64,000 nt of DNA, from assembly GCF_011927695.1 (NCBI RefSeq), contig NZ_JAATJE010000002.1, forward strand, positions 420,001 through 484,000, written 5' to 3'. The notes beneath the pieces are model-generated. The model did not search any database, had not been told where the DNA came from, and saw only the letters and a program-made list of their open reading frames with translations. Each line of letters starts with the position of its first letter. Positions within the stretch are counted from its first letter, which is position 1. The translations under genes were made by a program, and so were the position numbers. Origin of the DNA: Sphingomonas jejuensis. GTDB taxonomy: Bacteria; Pseudomonadota; Alphaproteobacteria; Sphingomonadales; Sphingomonadaceae. Shown in pieces: positions 50,307-57,407 of the stretch.

Positions 50307-50771
50307 TCATCGATCCGAAGGCTGGCTGTGATCCCGAGACAACATGGGGCGCCAACGAACGCCCAGGCTGATCACCAGCGGCCAGAACAGGGTGTTTCCT
50401 ATGTCAGCGAGCGTGTCTGCCCATCGAAGCCCATAGACAAGATAGTCCATGAACTCGTTGCCGAGTTCCGCGGCGAGAACCCACCAGAATGGGAAGAAAC
50501 TTCCGAGCGATCGCCGGCTGACGAGCCGGACAAGCAATAGGATCGCGAGCCCGGCATGGATGTGCAGAATGGCATCCGGGAGGCCGGTGCCATCCCCGAT
50601 CCACAAGATCAGACGATGGTAGAGGGCCGGGATCTGCCAGCCAGAGCCAAGCTCCTCCGGCGAAGAGGGGACCGACGCAGTTATCTGGCTTCTCCAACTA
50701 AGAGGCAAAGATGGGCAGTCGGTGTTGAACGCAGGCCGAAATCCGTCTGCCAGAAGGTCAGGTGGAAGCAC
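50307..50771 (-). CDS. Small multi-pass membrane protein (hypothetical)
   Basis: Up to 154 residues. The C-terminal 100 contain about three hydrophobic segments (AGLAILLLVRLV, FFPFWWVLAAELGNEFMDYLVYG, DIGNTLFWPLVISLGV) in a layout I recognise from unnamed sphingomonad proteins. The first 50 residues are not hydrophobic and the GTG start at 50771 is only a guess. GGAGGAG lies before a point with no in-frame start, so the true N-terminus may differ or be damaged. Confidence 0.6.
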   Translation of the reverse strand: MLPPDLLADGFRPAFNTDCPSLPLSWRSQITASVPSSPEELGSGWQIPALYHRLILWIGDGTGLPDAILHIHAGLAILLLVRLVSRRSLGSFFPFWWVLAAELGNEFMDYLVYGLRWADTLADIGNTLFWPLVISLGVRWRPMLSRDHSQPSDR

Positions 50772-50820
50772 GCGCTGCCCACGACCCCGCCGATAGGAAG
50801 CGAGGGATCAAGTCAACGCT

Positions 50821-51246
50821 TCAGATGAGCTGTCGGAGGCAGCTCAGGCCAATCCGTGCTCGGGCATTCGTGTCGGGTTGGGCGGTTTCATAGTTCTGAC
50901 GTGCTACGGCAGCTTCATCAGGGGACAGGCCTTCGGTCGCGCGGCGCCGATAGAGGGCCTGCGCTTGCGCGTAGACCCGCTCTTGCTCGGCGGACAGCAG
51001 CCCGCTCGATCGGAGGCGCGTTCCGAGCGCGTCGAGGCCGAACTCGCATGCCAGGGCCTGATCCTGCGCCGTGCCGGCCTGAGGCGCGCTAGCGCTGCTG
51101 AGAGACAGCTTCTGTGCTGTTGCCCGATCCTGCGCACTGAAGATCTTTGCGGGCGCGCGATCGGCTGGCTGCTCGCCTGACGGCGGTGGCGAACAGGATG
51201 CAAGGGAAGCCGATGCCACAAGCATATACGAGACAGAGCGGTGCAT
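50821..51246 (-). CDS. Hypothetical lipoprotein
   Basis: 141 residues. A signal of the lipoprotein type ends with LASCSPPPSG, so the mature protein is anchored at Cys. The rest is helical and Gln/Ala-rich with two more Cys residues. The start is the ATG at 51246 (GAGG six bases upstream); ATG 51258 is possible. No family recognised. It is the last gene before the tRNA-like remnant. Confidence 0.65.
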   Translation of the reverse strand: MHRSVSYMLVASASLASCSPPPSGEQPADRAPAKIFSAQDRATAQKLSLSSASAPQAGTAQDQALACEFGLDALGTRLRSSGLLSAEQERVYAQAQALYRRRATEGLSPDEAAVARQNYETAQPDTNARARIGLSCLRQLI

Positions 51247-51296
51247 TACGGGCCTCATTACGATGGCGGAACCATGGAGCCGGCCTAGAAGCGCCC

Positions 51297-51333
51297 GATC
51301 CGCAGGTCTGTCTTCGCCACTGAGCTACGGATC
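51297..51333 (-). other. Truncated tRNA-like sequence
   Basis: The minus strand reads GATCCGTAGCTCAGTGGCGA and on to CGGATC. The D-arm-like GTAGCTCAGTGG is tRNA-typical, and the six end bases pair with each other (GATCCG/CGGATC), but there is no recognisable anticodon arm or T-arm. It looks like a decayed tRNA or a fragment left by recombination. It is not counted as a functional tRNA. Confidence 0.35.
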
Positions 51334-51407
51334 AAGCATCTAGAGCCGTGGCGCACAAGCTTGCGGATGACGCTTGCCTGATCGGGATGCAATTCGGAGG
51401 CGGCAGC

Positions 51408-51794
51408 TTAGCGCTGTTGCGGCGTTCTCGCGGCGCGTTGCCGGTCTGAGGCTTCTTCGAACGGATCCGTCACGTTGCTGCGCGAATCATAGTTCCTATC
51501 CACCCGGTTGCGGATGCGGTTCTCCAAACGGTTTTGGATTCGCGCTTCGATGCGCTTCATCGGCTCAATCCGCAACGCCTCGGACAGATCCTCGGGATTT
51601 TGTCGTAAGCCGGCTTCTCCGGCCACACTGCTCGGGTTTCGGGTGAGAACTGGCGACGGGCCAGTTTCCTGATCTGGTTGATCGACCGTCTGCGCTTCGG
51701 CAAGGCTCGACGCGGCGATCGAAGCGAGAAGCAAGTAGAACAGGCGCAGGCACATTGTTCTGCTATACGCGGAGAGACTGAGATTGCTTTTCAT
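51408..51794 (-). CDS. Small secreted protein of the exopolysaccharide cluster
   Basis: 128 residues. A signal peptide (LRLFYLLLASIAASSLAEAQ) is followed by a polar, Arg/Asn-rich region with a repetitive stretch (KRIEARIQNRLENRIRNRVDRNYDSRSN) and a basic end. Its ATG overlaps the stop of the 411-residue gene (ATGA), so it belongs to the same operon. No known family. A surface or periplasmic partner of the polysaccharide is conceivable but unproven. Confidence 0.7.
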   Translation of the reverse strand: MKSNLSLSAYSRTMCLRLFYLLLASIAASSLAEAQTVDQPDQETGPSPVLTRNPSSVAGEAGLRQNPEDLSEALRIEPMKRIEARIQNRLENRIRNRVDRNYDSRSNVTDPFEEASDRQRAARTPQQR

Positions 51795-53026
51795 GGCGCC
51801 GGTCGGATCTGCGCCTCCAAAATGCGGCCCGTTGTACCGCCCACCTGAGTTGACGCTCTCGTAATGAGCGCAAGAGTCTGCATGGGACAATCTGCTGGAA
51901 CGACAAAGCGGCCGTTGAAACGCGCCTCACTGTCTGGGGAGTTCGTCATCACCACGCGCCCGAGCTCGCGCCCGTCCGCGCAAGTGATGAGCCAATATGG
52001 ACGGGCAGTCAGTTGCTGGTCGATCTCTGCGCTTCGTCCCGAGAGCGAATAGCGGCCTGGAGGCAGCAGCTGCCGTTGCGACAGAACAGGGCCGCCGACC
52101 GCCGCGGGTGCGGAGAAACTGACGAAACCGCCATCTTCTTCAGCTTGGATCGACGCGAATGCCCCGTCCTGCTGCACAGGCACCCAGTCAAACCCGGAGG
52201 GCCGTTCCAACCTTGTCGTGAAACGGGGATCTCGCGAGAACCGCTTGTTCGCTGCCGCATTGTACCGTCGATATAACGTCCAACTCGCATCGAGCGCTCC
52301 GGCGGAGACCAGGCGGTCCACGAGGCCGGCCCTCACAGAAGGTGGTATCGCGACACCTGCGCGGGCAAGCCGACCATAAAAGGCGGCGACGTCGACCGGG
52401 TCGCCCGTGTAAGAAACACTCTCGACGAACGAATCCAACCAATTCGGCCGCTGTGACAAAGTACGGGATAGGTATTCTTGGATCCGCGGATCAGCGATTG
52501 CGGTACTTAGAACAGGGAAGAGCAGCTCCGGCGCCTGTCGAGATGTCCTGAGAGCGACATCATAATGACTCAAGGCCGCCGCCAGGTCTCCCCGTCCAAC
52601 GGCATCTTCGATCAACCAAAGGCGAGTCCGCAAGTCTCGCCTCGAGAGTCGATCAGAGAAGGAGAAGTAGGATCTCGCTTCCGCTTCATCTTTGTCGAGC
52701 GCGGCTATGACGCCTCTGACCGATACAGCGGCGACAGCCGTCGGGTCACGCAGCAATGCCGCCGCGGCGAGGCGATCAGCTTGGTCACGGCTGCTTGGCG
52801 CGCCGCTGTCGGCGAGTTCGGCTGCGAAGCTTGCCTCAACCCTCGCGTCCCAGGGAGCCAGAGCATAGGCCGTATCCGGAAGCCGGGATCGTATCGCCAA
52901 GGCCAGCGACTGCGTCACCGACACATAGCACAACCAGAAGGTCGCCAGAGCCAGGGCCGATCGCAGCGCCCACTCCGCCGGCGAGCGACGACTTGTCCCG
53001 GCCCGCCGCCCCCGCTGCCTAGACAT
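51791..53026 (-). CDS. Unknown membrane protein, repeat plus beta-rich domains, in EPS cluster
   Basis: 411 residues. A basic N-terminus and one membrane helix (about residues 20-42: ALRSALALATFWLCYVSVTQ) lead into about 220 helical residues resembling degenerate TPRs (AAALLRDPTAVAAVSVRG, RGDLAAALSHYDVALR). The last 130 residues are beta-rich, with two Cys (ITCADG, PADCPM) likely to form a disulfide and a carbohydrate-binding-like pattern (LPPGRYSLSGRS). Probably periplasmic. The start shares one base with the stop of the Wzc-like gene. I know no named family. Confidence 0.75.
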   Translation of the reverse strand: MSRQRGRRAGTSRRSPAEWALRSALALATFWLCYVSVTQSLALAIRSRLPDTAYALAPWDARVEASFAAELADSGAPSSRDQADRLAAAALLRDPTAVAAVSVRGVIAALDKDEAEARSYFSFSDRLSRRDLRTRLWLIEDAVGRGDLAAALSHYDVALRTSRQAPELLFPVLSTAIADPRIQEYLSRTLSQRPNWLDSFVESVSYTGDPVDVAAFYGRLARAGVAIPPSVRAGLVDRLVSAGALDASWTLYRRYNAAANKRFSRDPRFTTRLERPSGFDWVPVQQDGAFASIQAEEDGGFVSFSAPAAVGGPVLSQRQLLPPGRYSLSGRSAEIDQQLTARPYWLITCADGRELGRVVMTNSPDSEARFNGRFVVPADCPMQTLALITRASTQVGGTTGRILEAQIRPAP

Positions 53027-55257
53027 CAGGTGCGCGCGGCCTTCTTGGCATCGGCTGCCGCGTCACGGCCGTAACCATAGCCGTAATCATACCCATAGCC
53101 GAAGTGAGCCTTCTTCGGCTCGAACTTCGTCAGCACGCCGCCGATGACGTAGGCGTTGGCACTGGCCAGTCGACCTAGAGCCGTCTTCACGAGGCTCGAT
53201 CGGATACCGTGCGACTCGACCGCATAGATCACACCTTCAACGCGGCTCGCGATCAGCGGAGCGTCAGCCAGTCCGAGCACAGGAGGGCTATCGATGACGA
53301 CATTGTCATACGTCTCGAGCAGCCGAGTAATCAGCAATTGCAGGCGATTGCCGGTCAGAAGCTCGGCGGCATTCGGCGGGATCGGGCCCGCTGACATGGC
53401 AGTGAAGCCCAGATCGGTCATCGGGAAGGTCAGCCCCTCGATCGAGTCTTCACCAGCCAGGAAGTTGCTCAAGCCTCGCTCGTGCCCCACATTTCCCAGG
53501 TGATGGACGGACGGTGACCGCATGTCGCCATCCACCAGGATGACCTTTCGCCCAGCGCGCGACAGGGTCGTGGCGAGCGACAGGGAGGTGGTCGACTTGC
53601 CTTCCGCCGGACGGGTCGACGTGACCGCGAAGGACCTCGGCACCCCGTGTTCAGTCGTGAAGGCGAGATTGGTCTGAACGGCCAAGTACGCATCGACGAG
53701 TTCGGATTTCCGATCCAGCAGAGCGTCGCGCGGAGTCTGCCCCTCGACCTTGGGCACCGTTCCAAGCAGTGGAAGTCCCAGGCGTCGCTCGACCTCGGCA
53801 GGATCGGCAATCGCCTCATCGATCTGCTCGAGCGCAAACGCCAGCCCCGCACCGAGTCCAAGACCCGCAAGGATTGCGATGGCGAGGTTGAGAAGCAGGC
53901 GCGGACTGGAGGGCCTTTGCGGAACGTCGGCCTGATCGACGATCGAAACGTTGTTGACGCCTACACCTCCAGCAATCCCGATCTCCCTGTAGCGCTGCAG
54001 CAAGCCTTCGTAGAGGGTGCGATTGGTATCAACTTCCTGTTGGAAGATGTTGTACTGGATGGACCGGCGGCGAAGATCCAAATAGTCGGCCTTCAAGCTT
54101 TCCACGCGGTTCCGCAATCCACGCTCACGCTGAAGAGCGCTGCGATAGTCGCCCTGCAACGAACCAGACACGCGCCGTTCCTCAGCGGCGATGCTGCGGT
54201 CGAGCTGCTCGATCTGCGATTGGATTTGCCGTGCCGCCGGATAGCCCGGTTCGAATTGCGTCATTAACCGTTGATAGTCTGCCGCGTATTCTGCACGTCG
54301 CTGACGGAGCGCATTGATGGCCTGATTTCGGAGGGCCTCAGCCGAAGCTCGGCGCCCGCCCTCGCGGAAGCGCGCTTCCGCCGCGATGCGATCCGCAGTT
54401 GCCTCTCCGAGCGCAGCATTCAAAGAGGCAAGATCGTCGGCAACGATCGACCGCTCAGTAGACGAGCCTTCACCCGAGGACTGTGCAGGTAAGTTTATGA
54501 TCTCCTGCTGCGACGCATAGGTGACAAGCTGGCGCTGACTTTCGTCTAGCAGCTCCTTTTGTTGCGCGAGTTGCCGCTCTAGCAAGTTGCGCCCGTAAGA
54601 GGTGGCTTGCACCTTTCGTTCAAGATTAGTCTGGATGAAGTTTTCCGACCAAGCGTTTGCAACTCGGGCGGAAAAGGCGGCATCCGGACTGGTGAAGCCG
54701 ATGTCGACCAAACGGGAAAGTCGTGTCGGAGAGATGCTTAGATTTTCACGAAGGATCTCACCCGCCGCACGCTGTCGTTCCGCCCGCCCCGCAGCAGCGT
54801 AACGTCCATTACTTAGCTCAAATGCAGGAGTGTCTGACGTGACTCCGAACATCTGGAAAAAATCCGGATCATCGATCAGCCTTAGCTGAACGGCCACGCG
54901 CTCAGACAAAGCGCGCGATCGCAGCAATCCATATTGTGTTTGATAGAACTCTTGATCGGCGATGCCGGTTTCGCGCTCCACTCCCTCAAAGTTCGTGACC
55001 TGACTAGCCTCTCGCGAAATCTCAATCGTGCTGACCGCCGTGTACTTCGGCGTCATAAGCAATGTGATTATCAAGCCCGCGACAACGCAAGCCGCCAATG
55101 CGGCTACGATGACGTAGCGCCACCGCATCGCAATCCGAAGATATTGCCGGATCAGCGGGATCTCTTCGGCTTGAACAGCCGAAATCCGCTTCGCACCCGC
55201 AGGATCCTGGTTCGCTGGATTGAAGTTCCCGCGCAAATTCGGGGTCACGAGGTTCAT
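53026..55257 (-). CDS. Polysaccharide co-polymerase with tyrosine autokinase domain (Wzc/GumC-like)
   Basis: 743 residues. The N-terminal Wzz domain has two membrane helices (about 50-70 and 450-470) and a long coiled-coil periplasmic part. The kinase half has Walker A around Lys554 (AEGKSTTS), Walker A' VILVDGDMRSP and NVVIDSPPVLGLAD. The C-terminus holds a Tyr cluster (FGYGYDYGYGYGRD) for autophosphorylation. It controls chain length and export together with the Wza-like protein. No tyrosine phosphatase gene is adjacent. Confidence 0.94.
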   Translation of the reverse strand: MNLVTPNLRGNFNPANQDPAGAKRISAVQAEEIPLIRQYLRIAMRWRYVIVAALAACVVAGLIITLLMTPKYTAVSTIEISREASQVTNFEGVERETGIADQEFYQTQYGLLRSRALSERVAVQLRLIDDPDFFQMFGVTSDTPAFELSNGRYAAAGRAERQRAAGEILRENLSISPTRLSRLVDIGFTSPDAAFSARVANAWSENFIQTNLERKVQATSYGRNLLERQLAQQKELLDESQRQLVTYASQQEIINLPAQSSGEGSSTERSIVADDLASLNAALGEATADRIAAEARFREGGRRASAEALRNQAINALRQRRAEYAADYQRLMTQFEPGYPAARQIQSQIEQLDRSIAAEERRVSGSLQGDYRSALQRERGLRNRVESLKADYLDLRRRSIQYNIFQQEVDTNRTLYEGLLQRYREIGIAGGVGVNNVSIVDQADVPQRPSSPRLLLNLAIAILAGLGLGAGLAFALEQIDEAIADPAEVERRLGLPLLGTVPKVEGQTPRDALLDRKSELVDAYLAVQTNLAFTTEHGVPRSFAVTSTRPAEGKSTTSLSLATTLSRAGRKVILVDGDMRSPSVHHLGNVGHERGLSNFLAGEDSIEGLTFPMTDLGFTAMSAGPIPPNAAELLTGNRLQLLITRLLETYDNVVIDSPPVLGLADAPLIASRVEGVIYAVESHGIRSSLVKTALGRLASANAYVIGGVLTKFEPKKAHFGYGYDYGYGYGRDAAADAKKAART

Positions 55258-55268
55258 AGAAAACTGCC

Positions 55269-55979
55269 CTACTGCAGGAACGCGATGAGAGGCGCCGCAA
55301 GAACCGGCGAAACAGCCACGAGGTCTCGGAAGAGGCGGCGCTGGGGAGAGTCGCCGACCACGATGACATCATTGGCGTAGACGGGCGGGTCATCGTAGGC
55401 GCCGCGGCGAATGGCGGCGACGTTGTAAAGGCCGGCCATACGACGCCCCTCCACGCTCCGCAGGATCACCACATCGTCCTGCCTTGCAAATTCGGAGAAC
55501 CCCCGCGCGGAGGCGATGACGCGCATCAGCGTCATCTGGTTGGTCACAGGATAGAGCCCCGGTTCGGTCACCTGACCATCGATGGTCACAACCTGGCTGA
55601 CGGAGCTCCGGATGTTCACGATCACCTGAGGATCCCGCACGAAGCGAGCGCGCAGTGCCTCTTCGACGCGCAGGGCTAGCTCGCCAGCCGTCAGGCCGTT
55701 CGCATCGATCGTGCCTGCGAGCGGCATCGCGATGCGGCCACTCGCGTCCACCTGCATTTCGCGGCTGAGGTCCGGAACGTTAAAGACATCGACCTGGATC
55801 GTGTCGAGCGGACCAATCAGTGCCGGACGATCCGCGGCCAGCAGATCCTGCCGGTTAGGCGGCGGCAAAACAGCAGCGCCGTCCACAACCGTCAGCCGCG
55901 GTGTCGAGGTTATCGGCTCGCGCCCCGCGCAGCCGGAAAGCGCCGCAGCCGCAAGAAAAACAAGGGAAAGTTTCAGCAT
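55269..55979 (-). CDS. Polysaccharide export lipoprotein (Wza-like)
   Basis: 236 residues. A lipoprotein signal (LSGCAG) precedes the poly-export domain (LIGPLDTIQVDVFNVPDLS...MPLAGTI) and a SLBB-type beta-grasp repeat (VTIDGQVTEPGLYPV). It forms the outer-membrane or periplasmic channel for the exopolysaccharide. It is shorter than E. coli Wza (379) and lacks the C-terminal amphipathic helix region. The stop is 11 bases before the Wzc-like start. Confidence 0.93.
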   Translation of the reverse strand: MLKLSLVFLAAAALSGCAGREPITSTPRLTVVDGAAVLPPPNRQDLLAADRPALIGPLDTIQVDVFNVPDLSREMQVDASGRIAMPLAGTIDANGLTAGELALRVEEALRARFVRDPQVIVNIRSSVSQVVTIDGQVTEPGLYPVTNQMTLMRVIASARGFSEFARQDDVVILRSVEGRRMAGLYNVAAIRRGAYDDPPVYANDVIVVGDSPQRRLFRDLVAVSPVLAAPLIAFLQ

Positions 55980-56017
55980 GCGCCGCTTGGTTCCGCCGGT
56001 CAGGAAAAATCTTGCCG

Positions 56018-56046
56018 CCTATAGGGGCTGCCTTCACGCGGGTAAA
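56018..56046 (-). promoter_or_regulatory. Candidate internal promoter for the wza-wzc part
   Basis: On the minus strand: TTTACC, 17-base spacer, TATAGG, overlapping the end of the O-antigen-ligase-like gene and 39 bases upstream of the Wza-like ATG. It would let the export genes be transcribed apart from the ligase gene. Confidence 0.45.
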
Positions 56047-57407
56047 GCTGGGCGGCCCGACCGGCTCGAGCCTCCGTTCAGCCACACCGCTGCAATCGCG
56101 ACGATCGCCATGATCATCGGAGTGCGCGCCGGGTAATCGACCAGGCTGGCAAGGAAGATGAGGAGCAGCACCGAAGACCCCAGTTTCGCGGTCGCATGCT
56201 CCGACCGCCCTCCCGCACGCCATGCCCGCACACTGGCCAGCAGCCACCACCCCAGCGCGACCAGAAGCAGCACCATGCCCGCCAGGCCGCCTTCGAGAGC
56301 GACCTCCAGAAAATCATTATGCGCATGATTAAGGTACAGGGTCTGGAGAAGCTCCAGAGGCTCGCGGATACGGAAAACCGGGTCGAAACTTCCAAACCCG
56401 GAACCGGCAGGAAAGTAGATCCAAAGAGCGTCGATGACGGTCGGGAGTCCGCGTGCTCGCAGGTCGTCGCTGGCGTCGATCGACAGAGCACGATCGATCG
56501 CGTCCGCGCGACCGGCGGAGAGGGAAACGAACACAAGCGAGATGATCAGGGCTCCAATCGCGACCAGCAGAGCCGGAAACGCCCATTTGGGTGCGCGGCG
56601 CAGGTCGTCGCGCAGTCGGCGGCGAACGATGAGCAGGCCGAGAACGACGCCGACCACTCCGAGAAGGAGGCCCGCTCGAGACCCGCTGGCAAGGATCATC
56701 AAGACCAAGACCAGGATCATACCGAGTGCGGCTGCGCCTCGCCATCGCGCCCGCGTTTGGCCGCCAAACGCCCACACCGGCGCAACAACGCACCCGATCG
56801 CCAGAAACAATGCGAAATGATTTCGGTTGGCCAAGCTACCGCTTACCTGACCGTTTCCATCGTTGATGAGCGGATTGTCAAAATCGATCCCAGAGAACTG
56901 AACGACGCCAAGAAGCATCGACATCAGGATGACGACCAACACCATCAGCGGAACAAGCGCGCGATCCTCAGCCGGCATCCAGGCCAACAGGATTAGGACC
57001 GCGGCGGGCACAACAAGCGAGGCGGCAGCGTTGACGGCGCCGTCCGGTACGATCGCCAATGGGCGCCATATATCTGCCGGGAGAACGTCCGCCTGAGCGA
57101 AAAGCTCGCGGCCCGGCAGGCTCTGCCACAGACCGGGCGGAAGCGGCACCAGCTGGACGATCAACAGCAGGAGCGCGGCGGCCAGAATGAAGATGGCGGG
57201 ACGGGTATCGTCTAGCCTGATCGGGCGCGGAGCGAGGAAAGCCGTGGCGACGATCGCCAGGAACGCCGCACATCGTGTGATCGCTTGGCCCATCGCGTCC
57301 GCCCGTGACGCGCCGCCCGCCATCCAGAGCACCGCAAACAAAGTGGCGAGGATGAGGAACGAGGCTCCGGGCCGCCGCAGGAGCGTGCCGCGTCTATGGT
57401 CTGGCAT
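56034..57407 (-). CDS. O-antigen ligase / polymerase family protein
   Basis: 457 residues with about 11-12 hydrophobic segments and the Wzy/WaaL-type periplasmic loop: GSLANRNHFALFLAIG early, SGSRAGLLLGV in the middle, and the HAHNDFLEVALEGGLAG signature (catalytic His) before the last helices. It either ligates chains to lipid A or polymerises repeat units. Position before Wza/Wzc favours polymerase for an exopolysaccharide. Confidence 0.9.
   Translation of the reverse strand: MPDHRRGTLLRRPGASFLILATLFAVLWMAGGASRADAMGQAITRCAAFLAIVATAFLAPRPIRLDDTRPAIFILAAALLLLIVQLVPLPPGLWQSLPGRELFAQADVLPADIWRPLAIVPDGAVNAAASLVVPAAVLILLAWMPAEDRALVPLMVLVVILMSMLLGVVQFSGIDFDNPLINDGNGQVSGSLANRNHFALFLAIGCVVAPVWAFGGQTRARWRGAAALGMILVLVLMILASGSRAGLLLGVVGVVLGLLIVRRRLRDDLRRAPKWAFPALLVAIGALIISLVFVSLSAGRADAIDRALSIDASDDLRARGLPTVIDALWIYFPAGSGFGSFDPVFRIREPLELLQTLYLNHAHNDFLEVALEGGLAGMVLLLVALGWWLLASVRAWRAGGRSEHATAKLGSSVLLLIFLASLVDYPARTPMIMAIVAIAAVWLNGGSSRSGRPALPA

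Follow-up and report, generated by a model that had tools for sequence, protein, structure and literature searches.

A protein without a named family accompanies a probable polymerase, Wzc and Wza in a polysaccharide export module of Sphingomonas jejuensis

We analyzed a 64,000-nucleotide stretch of the Sphingomonas jejuensis genome (contig NZ_JAATJE010000002.1, positions 420,001 to 484,000; hereafter the window), in which a compact polysaccharide module of five genes lies on the minus strand. Three of its products, here called LIG, WZA and WZC, fall into known families, and the other two, P411 and P128 (411 and 128 residues), do not. In window coordinates, and in reading order, the genes are as follows.

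56034-57407, minus strand: LIG, a membrane protein of the Wzy_C/O-antigen ligase family (457 residues; PF04932 (Wzy_C), E 2.8e-16)
55269-55979, minus strand: WZA, an outer-membrane polysaccharide export (OPX) protein (236 residues; Poly_export PF02563, E 2.4e-20; SLBB, E 1.3e-11)
53026-55257, minus strand: WZC, a one-piece co-polymerase with a tyrosine autokinase and a Tyr-rich tail (743 residues; Wzz PF02706, GNVR PF13807 and kinase-type ATPase PF13614)
51791-53026, minus strand: P411, with a predicted N-terminal helix, a tetratricopeptide repeat (TPR) superhelix and a beta-sandwich resembling carbohydrate-binding modules (CBMs), assigned from a structure model, fold matches and a TPR profile
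51408-51794, minus strand: P128, a small protein with a hydrophobic, signal-like N-terminus and an Arg-bearing helix, described from an alignment and a model

On family matches, a Wzy-type polymerase, a bacterial tyrosine (BY) kinase co-polymerase and an OPX protein, as expected of a Wzx/Wzy-dependent system, thus all lie in one locus. WZC scored 137.9 bits against NCBIfam TIGR01007, above the cut-off of 108.05 bits, and its Tyr-rich tail reads FGYGYDYGYGYG. The WZC and P411 genes overlap by one base and those of P411 and P128 by four. P411 gave no Pfam family, only sub-threshold TPR matches (best PF23914, E 1.1e-5, 25.7 bits against a cut-off of 42), and no NCBIfam match at all; P128 matched nothing in either collection. 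A sequence-only reading of this interval had described these genes in this order with the same overlaps, including a ligase/polymerase homologue, a Wza-like protein, a Wzc-like protein with a Tyr-rich tail and two genes without a named family, and each of these points was borne out, the first at the level of the family (PF04932). Chance can be excluded as the origin of the gene set, because the genes and their order are kept in dozens of genomes.

To quantify how P411 is distributed, we searched 296 Sphingomonadales genomes from 80 genera, calling WZC at E <= 1e-80 and P411 at E <= 1e-10 with a profile made from 36 diverse rows (alignment A4). A search with the single P411 sequence gave a match in 113 genomes, and the profile matched in 162, spread over 38 genera. 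WZC was present in 177 genomes; P411 was found in 162 of these and in none of the 119 genomes lacking WZC, counts that are inflated by relatedness among the genomes. Adjacency was then scored at 109 WZC places out of 150 listed: among the matches listed, P411 lay within 5 kb of WZC in at least 99 places, and in at least 91 it followed WZC directly on the same strand, with a median gap of 51 bases. When 289 genomes were drawn from the whole class, five carried a P411 match, three from the same family and two from another order of the class. In these two the order was WZA, WZC, P411, LIG, and the P411 frame overlapped WZC by four bases in one and by one base in the other. P411 therefore tracks WZC, and since it belongs to no Pfam or NCBIfam family and adjoins Wzc in close relatives, we found neither a named family with an unrelated role nor an absence beside Wzc in such relatives.

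The strongest clue to where P411 acts came from gene fusions. Six genomes, all of one genus, carry P411 as the C-terminal half of the polymerase, in single open reading frames (ORFs) of 838-892 residues with near full-length matches to both LIG and P411 (loci L066, L067, L166, L167, L168 and L169; L067 is from the same genome as L170). Two of the fusion genomes (L066 and L067) contributed rows to the P411 profile; the other four did not. The P411 part begins at its N-terminal helix, directly after the last membrane segments of LIG, and no stand-alone P411 ORF was seen in the scanned stretches of the six genomes, while stand-alone frames do occur in other genomes of the genus. WZC was present in all six, and WZA only in L067, L166 and L169. 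These fusions therefore suggest that P411 acts at the polymerase. A fusion of P411 to Wzc was also suspected, from open frames of 1138-1176 residues (G005, G271 and G196), and was ruled out: Wzc has its own stop before P411 (L063, L064 and L065), and the profile search gave P411 frames of 405 and 406 residues for two of the three. Together, co-occurrence, gene order, polymerase fusions and the predicted fold described below support the notion that P411 is a conserved, dedicated partner of the polymerase/Wzc/Wza set.

We also compared how fast the module proteins diverge, using 50 module sets. Median pairwise identity was 47% for LIG and 45% for P411, as against 72% for both WZA and WZC; such faster divergence of P411 and LIG would suit components exposed to a variable polymer. 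Once the other parts were corrected for, P411 distances were correlated with those of WZC (partial r 0.45, permutation p 0.001; when limited to the 38 closest sets, 0.33, p 0.002) and of LIG (0.34, p 0.001; closest sets, 0.22, p 0.024), and not with those of WZA (0.04, p 0.32; closest sets, 0.08, p 0.21); Mantel-type tests are rough when the sequences are related. These correlations point to a possible inner-membrane partnership of P411 with WZC and LIG.

An AlphaFold2 model of P411, built from 47 rows, had a mean predicted local distance difference test (pLDDT) score of 95.8 and comprised an N-terminal helix (residues 16-45), a run of helices (50-255) and strands (289-409) within a beta-sandwich spanning about residues 257 to 411. 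The helical part is a TPR superhelix both by fold comparison and by profile against PDB sequences (consensus TPR, E 6.9e-17). The best Foldseek row for the beta part was a porphyran-binding module (8xmz), and CBM61, CBM22, CBM4, CBM16, a hyaluronan-binding module and the K2 capsule tailspike matched as well. Superposed on CBM folds, this part gave Z 12.8-14.1 and a root-mean-square deviation of 2.5-3.3 A over 125-147 residues, at 9-21% identity, and is thus a CBM-type beta-sandwich by fold. P411 has no named CBM family at cut-off; one relative matched PF22637 (CBM_4_9_1) at E 0.072, within its helical part. Membership of Wzy_C_2 (PF11846), which is likewise a soluble domain at the C-terminus of polymerase-type membrane proteins, was considered and rejected: P411 here had no match, one fusion reached 17.9 of the required 28.5 bits (E 0.0032), and there was no match in a second fusion or in eight other relatives scanned.

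The sequence-only reading had pictured P411 as an anchored protein with helical repeats and a beta domain. The repeats and the beta domain stand on the model, and the anchor is likely, with the N-terminal helix as the predicted membrane segment: in the family, 28/47 and 26/36 rows exceed a hydropathy of 1.6, with medians of 1.65 (alignment A3) and 1.85 (alignment A4). For P411 itself, the hydropathy scan speaks against an anchor, as it calls no membrane segment (best 19-residue mean 1.58, limit 1.6). Cys349, Cys380, Trp196 and Trp281 are invariant in 47/47 and 36/36 rows, and the two Cys, both in the beta half, would fit a disulfide in an oxidizing compartment; anchor and Cys pair together would place the TPR superhelix on the periplasmic side. 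The only other Cys of P411, Cys33, lies within the N-terminal helix, so that there is no typical lipoprotein start.

We then set out the sugar genes of this genome. Whole-genome searches with PF02397 and PF00534 gave no match inside the window, nor did tblastn with 29 reference sugar, glycosyltransferase, flippase and cluster proteins at E <= 1e-6, in keeping with the earlier statement that no glycosyltransferase or initiating transferase is adjacent. As to the whereabouts of TRANSFERASES, the two initiating transferases (PF02397) of the genome lie on another contig, C1, at C1:1201226 and C1:1658172, the latter being the gene at C1:1658133-1658837, and all 16 PF00534 matches are outside the window. 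By Pfam, a repeat-unit cluster at C1:1634870-1660769 holds an initiating transferase, a WbpM-like dehydratase, a Wzx-like flippase (Polysacc_synt_3) and GT4 glycosyltransferases, so that an initiating transferase, glycosyltransferases and a Wzx-type flippase are all present in the genome. Mostly by resemblance, we take further genes of this cluster to be FnlA/FnlB/WecB, HisH/HisF, WbpG-like, WlbA-like, acetyltransferase and aminotransferase genes. None of its ORFs matches WZA or WZC, and Poly_export (PF02563) has two matches in the genome, one at C1:1183892 and one in the window. We infer that the transferases of this cluster serve the LIG-WZA-WZC module. The cluster also contains, at C1:1644276-1646258 (L091), a 660-residue right-handed beta-helix protein (Beta_helix/NosD), possibly a polymer-modifying or -cleaving enzyme. 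The C1:1183892 match falls in a second polysaccharide locus at C1:1174766-1201813 (L052, L093), which presumably carries rml-type genes, a WecG-like glycosyltransferase, Wza, a 448-residue protein, a Wzz-like protein, a separate kinase and an initiating transferase. The layout of this locus resembles promonan cluster A of Sphingomonas sp. LM7.

The neighborhood of the module differs among relatives. We scored a main set of 63 loci, 54 of them with WZC and P411 (>50 bits), and a second set of 39 loci, 28 of them with both, for matches to 28 reference proteins drawn from this genome and from the loci themselves; the flanks compared reached at most 10 kb, and some stopped short at contig ends. 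The tally can undercount (L118 scored empty, yet has a GT4) and can overcount, as the dehydrogenase and epimerase references match unrelated relatives of the same fold. In the main set, an initiating transferase or glycosyltransferase match was found in 26/54 loci, either such a match or a reference protein matched at 40% identity or more in 42/54, and any reference match in 45/54. The corresponding numbers in the second set were 17/28, 26/28 and 26/28. With these transferases and sugar genes nearby in so many relatives, and a repeat-unit cluster on another contig here, the lack of glycosyltransferases, which the sequence-only reading had taken as a trait of the system, finds no support as one.

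How, then, did the module of S. jejuensis come to stand alone? In Sphingomonas sp. ID1715 (L107), HisF, FnlA, FnlB, WecB and GT4 genes lie directly upstream of LIG-WZA-WZC-P411, and this block matches the C1 block at 79% DNA identity over 5,392 bases, with proteins 72-92% identical. Other parts of the C1 cluster (72-81% identity) lie within about 8 kb of modules in L042, L106 and L109. Because the C1 block adjoins the same module in ID1715, we read the transferase-free module as the outcome of genome rearrangement, and this synteny makes it most likely that, in this lineage, the module became detached from the repeat-unit cluster. A transposase gene (rve + HTH_21) sits 0.35 kb past the GT4 end of the C1 block, and only this position suggests movement by the transposase; its region has no copy in the window and a single partial match elsewhere in the genome, 44 bases at 91% (C1:1663139-1663182), on the far side of the C1 cluster and perhaps a remnant. 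On comparison of the flanks in 59 genomes (S. jejuensis among them), the metallo-beta-lactamase and S9 peptidase genes flanking the module were on different contigs in 12/12 relatives matching both, so no empty insertion site between them could be demonstrated.

P128 is a narrower family than P411, found downstream of it in many Sphingomonas, 94-152 residues long with a signal-like start and an invariant GxR. In 31/31 aligned rows, picked by eye for likeness, Arg81, 85, 89, 93 and 97, every fourth residue, and R64 are invariant. The model (pLDDT 70.6, predicted template modeling score 0.26) places this Arg ladder on a helix (78-101), and past residue 30 the family has a median net charge of +6 (range, -1 to 10). 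By tblastn (>50 bits), P128 follows P411 in 28 of the 54 main-set loci with WZC and P411. We consider P128 probably, though on slight grounds, a secreted polymer-associated accessory peptide; that it binds an acidic polymer is a guess. The earlier proposal that both proteins are dedicated export parts is accordingly supported for P411, by partnership, fusions and fold, and more weakly for P128, whose only link to export is its position.

We think it probable that the five genes form the polymerization and export end of a Wzx/Wzy-dependent pathway, with P411 as a periplasmic, polymer-handling core subunit and with the transferases separated from the module in this lineage. Lipid-linked repeat units would be built by the transferases on the other contig and flipped by the Wzx there. 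From family knowledge, and for LIG also from published deletions in relatives, LIG would polymerize them on the periplasmic side of the inner membrane, WZC would set chain length and drive export through cycling tyrosine phosphorylation, and WZA would export the chain. P411, anchored by its helix beside LIG as the fusions suggest, would bind LIG and/or WZC through its TPR superhelix and touch or hold the growing polymer with its beta-sandwich, keeping the chain at the polymerase and passing it to WZC and WZA; P128 may join as a secreted, polymer-associated peptide. A bolder version, which we hold only tentatively, makes P411 the core subunit of a sub-class of Wzy machines, a polymerase-tethered clamp handing the chain to Wzc and the Wzy-pathway equivalent of the TPR scaffolds in synthase systems, with P128 as an arginine-ladder peptide binding acidic polymer at the surface. 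The claim that the module is a variant beyond standard Wzy models survives in part: the pathway itself is of a known kind, and what is new is a widespread, unnamed subunit with a possible role at the step from polymerase to Wzc.

To our knowledge, it is an open question how the Wzy polymerase hands the growing chain on to Wzc and Wza. P411, which lies beside the polymerase and Wzc, is sometimes fused to the former and has a domain resembling sugar-binding ones, would offer a direct handle on this step. Sphingomonads are used for making industrial gums, and a role for P411 would name a gene without a family in many of them. The locus is also a warning that export modules in sphingomonads can be detached from sugar genes.

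Similar operons have been studied in relatives. The S. sanxanigenens operon NX02_02920-02935 encodes, among others, a polymerase (ssG), a Wza-like protein (ssD) and a Wzc-like protein (ssC); deleting the operon or each gene gives an Ss- phenotype with reduced sanxan yield, and deletion of ssG drastically lowers sanxan. Supplied in trans, ssG gives no restoration and ssC only a partial one, according to the passages on this operon (PMC5399355). Like the present module, it has a polymerase (459 residues), a Wza-like protein, a one-piece Wzc-like protein (751 residues) and a fourth gene at the Wzc end, with transferases elsewhere; unlike it, the Wza-like protein has only 199 residues, and three proteins are named while NX02_02920 is left unnamed in these passages (PMC5399355). 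The operon was later deleted as ssGCD, with no fourth gene named in the part describing that deletion (PMC10884872). Cluster B of Sphingomonas sp. LM7 is alike in its numbering (GT4, Wzy, one untabulated gene, Wzc) and in HisF/HisH, WbuX, MviM and WxcM-type sugar genes, which resemble C1 cluster genes; it differs in being a single locus of nearly 48 kb, with no P411 counterpart mentioned in the passages on it (PMC11340318). The synthase-dependent scaffolds PgaA, AlgK, BcsC and PelB share with P411 a TPR superhelix serving polymer export, and the TPR module of PgaA can bind poly-N-acetylglucosamine, as described in part of PMC9384988. These scaffolds are associated with the outer membrane and belong to synthase pathways, to which the TPR passages of PMC12220298 also relate, whereas P411 combines a CBM-like domain with an N-terminal helix, is part of a Wzy/Wzc/Wza set, and lacks traits of outer-membrane association (no barrel in the model, no typical lipoprotein start). 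The portion of PMC4594306 consulted yielded nothing on polymerase-TPR fusions, and we found no paper naming P411 among the open-access full-text listings and passages covered.

Could P411 instead be a purely structural scaffold, whose TPR and beta-sandwich bind proteins (LIG, WZC or peptidoglycan factors) and never sugar? TPR domains usually bind proteins, and the residual co-divergence of P411 is with WZC and LIG. Moreover, the matches to sugar-binding folds are at 9-21% identity, and the Foldseek rows also include jelly rolls that do not bind sugar (GOLD, MAM-bearing and insecticidal-protein chains), so the likeness does not establish sugar binding. However, the best row is the porphyran-binding module, CBM61, CBM22, CBM4 and the K2 capsule tailspike are matched too, and P411 and the polymerase diverge at about the same rate; we consider a sugar-free scaffold unlikely. 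Alternatively, LIG might be a ligase attaching finished chains to lipid or protein, with P411 recognizing the acceptor and the polymerase supplied by a 450-residue protein of the C1 repeat-unit cluster, which has no family match. PF04932 is named O-antigen ligase and does not separate ligases from polymerases, and the product assigned to LM7 cluster B is cell-associated polysaccharide, as wzyB deletion makes cells denser (PMC11340318, passages on wzyB). Nevertheless, the same-place genes in S. sanxanigenens (ssG, whose operon position LIG shares by locus-tag number) and LM7 were assigned polymerases by the authors of the passages concerned (PMC5399355, PMC11340318), and of the 54 main-set loci that have both WZC and P411, 50 show a LIG match, in most cases immediately ahead of WZA and WZC. 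Because of this published genetics of similar operons, LIG is most likely the repeat-unit polymerase, and a ligase role looks improbable. That the module has decayed or been orphaned, and is inactive without neighboring transferases, fits the lack of transferase matches in the window, yet it is very improbable given open and conserved frames, a repeat-unit cluster without wza in the same genome and, per the sanxan passages of PMC5399355, a pathway scattered in the genome yet working in S. sanxanigenens.

Besides the missing membrane call, the non-sugar jelly rolls and the 450-residue protein, several observations weigh against P411 as a core subunit of a polymerization and export module separated from its transferases. 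Fifteen of the 177 WZC genomes had no P411 profile match, and 10 of the 109 WZC places, among the matches listed, had no P411 nearby. Nine of the 63 loci carry P411 without LIG, WZA or WZC in the fetched flank; in one such genome (L150), WZC and LIG are apparently together on another contig. Twelve of the 54 loci have neither a transferase nor a sugar gene reaching 40% identity, so that a free-standing module may not be unique to this genome and may occur elsewhere; L098, L100 and L134 had no transferase among the one, two and five flanking proteins scanned. NX02_02920 occupies the place of P411 going by locus-tag number only (PMC5399355, operon passages), and in LM7 the wzyB deletion leaves the secreted polymer and the Congo Red colony look unchanged, as the relevant passages state (PMC11340318). 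For P128, the protein of this genome has 16 basic and 16 acidic residues beyond residue 34.

Two further ORFs lie downstream of P128 in the interval.

50821-51258, minus strand: a 145-residue lipoprotein-like ORF of uncertain membership, weakly matched next to the module in a few relatives
50307-50771, minus strand: a 154-residue ORF at the far end of the interval, lacking any hit in Pfam or NCBIfam at E values up to 1

The first gave tblastn matches in L045, L046, L048 and L049 (31-41% identity) and clustered ORFs in L041 and L047; none exceeded 50 bits in the tally of module loci, and its Pfam match was sub-threshold (PF05350, E 0.012). The second, searched by tblastn over 40 loci, gave no match longer than 30 residues; since no homologue was seen beside other modules, it is probably not part of the module. 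A VanZ-like nature, an impression by eye, was dropped for want of a Pfam or NCBIfam match.

Some P411 and module loci stand out individually. The nine solitary P411 genes (L138, L140, L143-L147, L150 and L151) have 27-30% identity and are mostly Sphingorhabdus-like. In L056, the P411 homologue adjoins what we take to be riboflavin-type genes, likewise found near the module in L038. In Sphingomonas sp. Leaf67 (L134:11769-12701), the module lies beside a replication initiator (PF10134), suggesting plasmid carriage. Sphingomonas sp. 7/4-4 (L121) carries LIG, WZA and WZC in two pieces each, close to a single P411, either split by frameshift or doubled. Finally, a 5.7-kb contig labeled as an Acidobacteria metagenome-assembled genome (L155) carries LIG-WZA-WZC-P411, through mis-binning or transfer.

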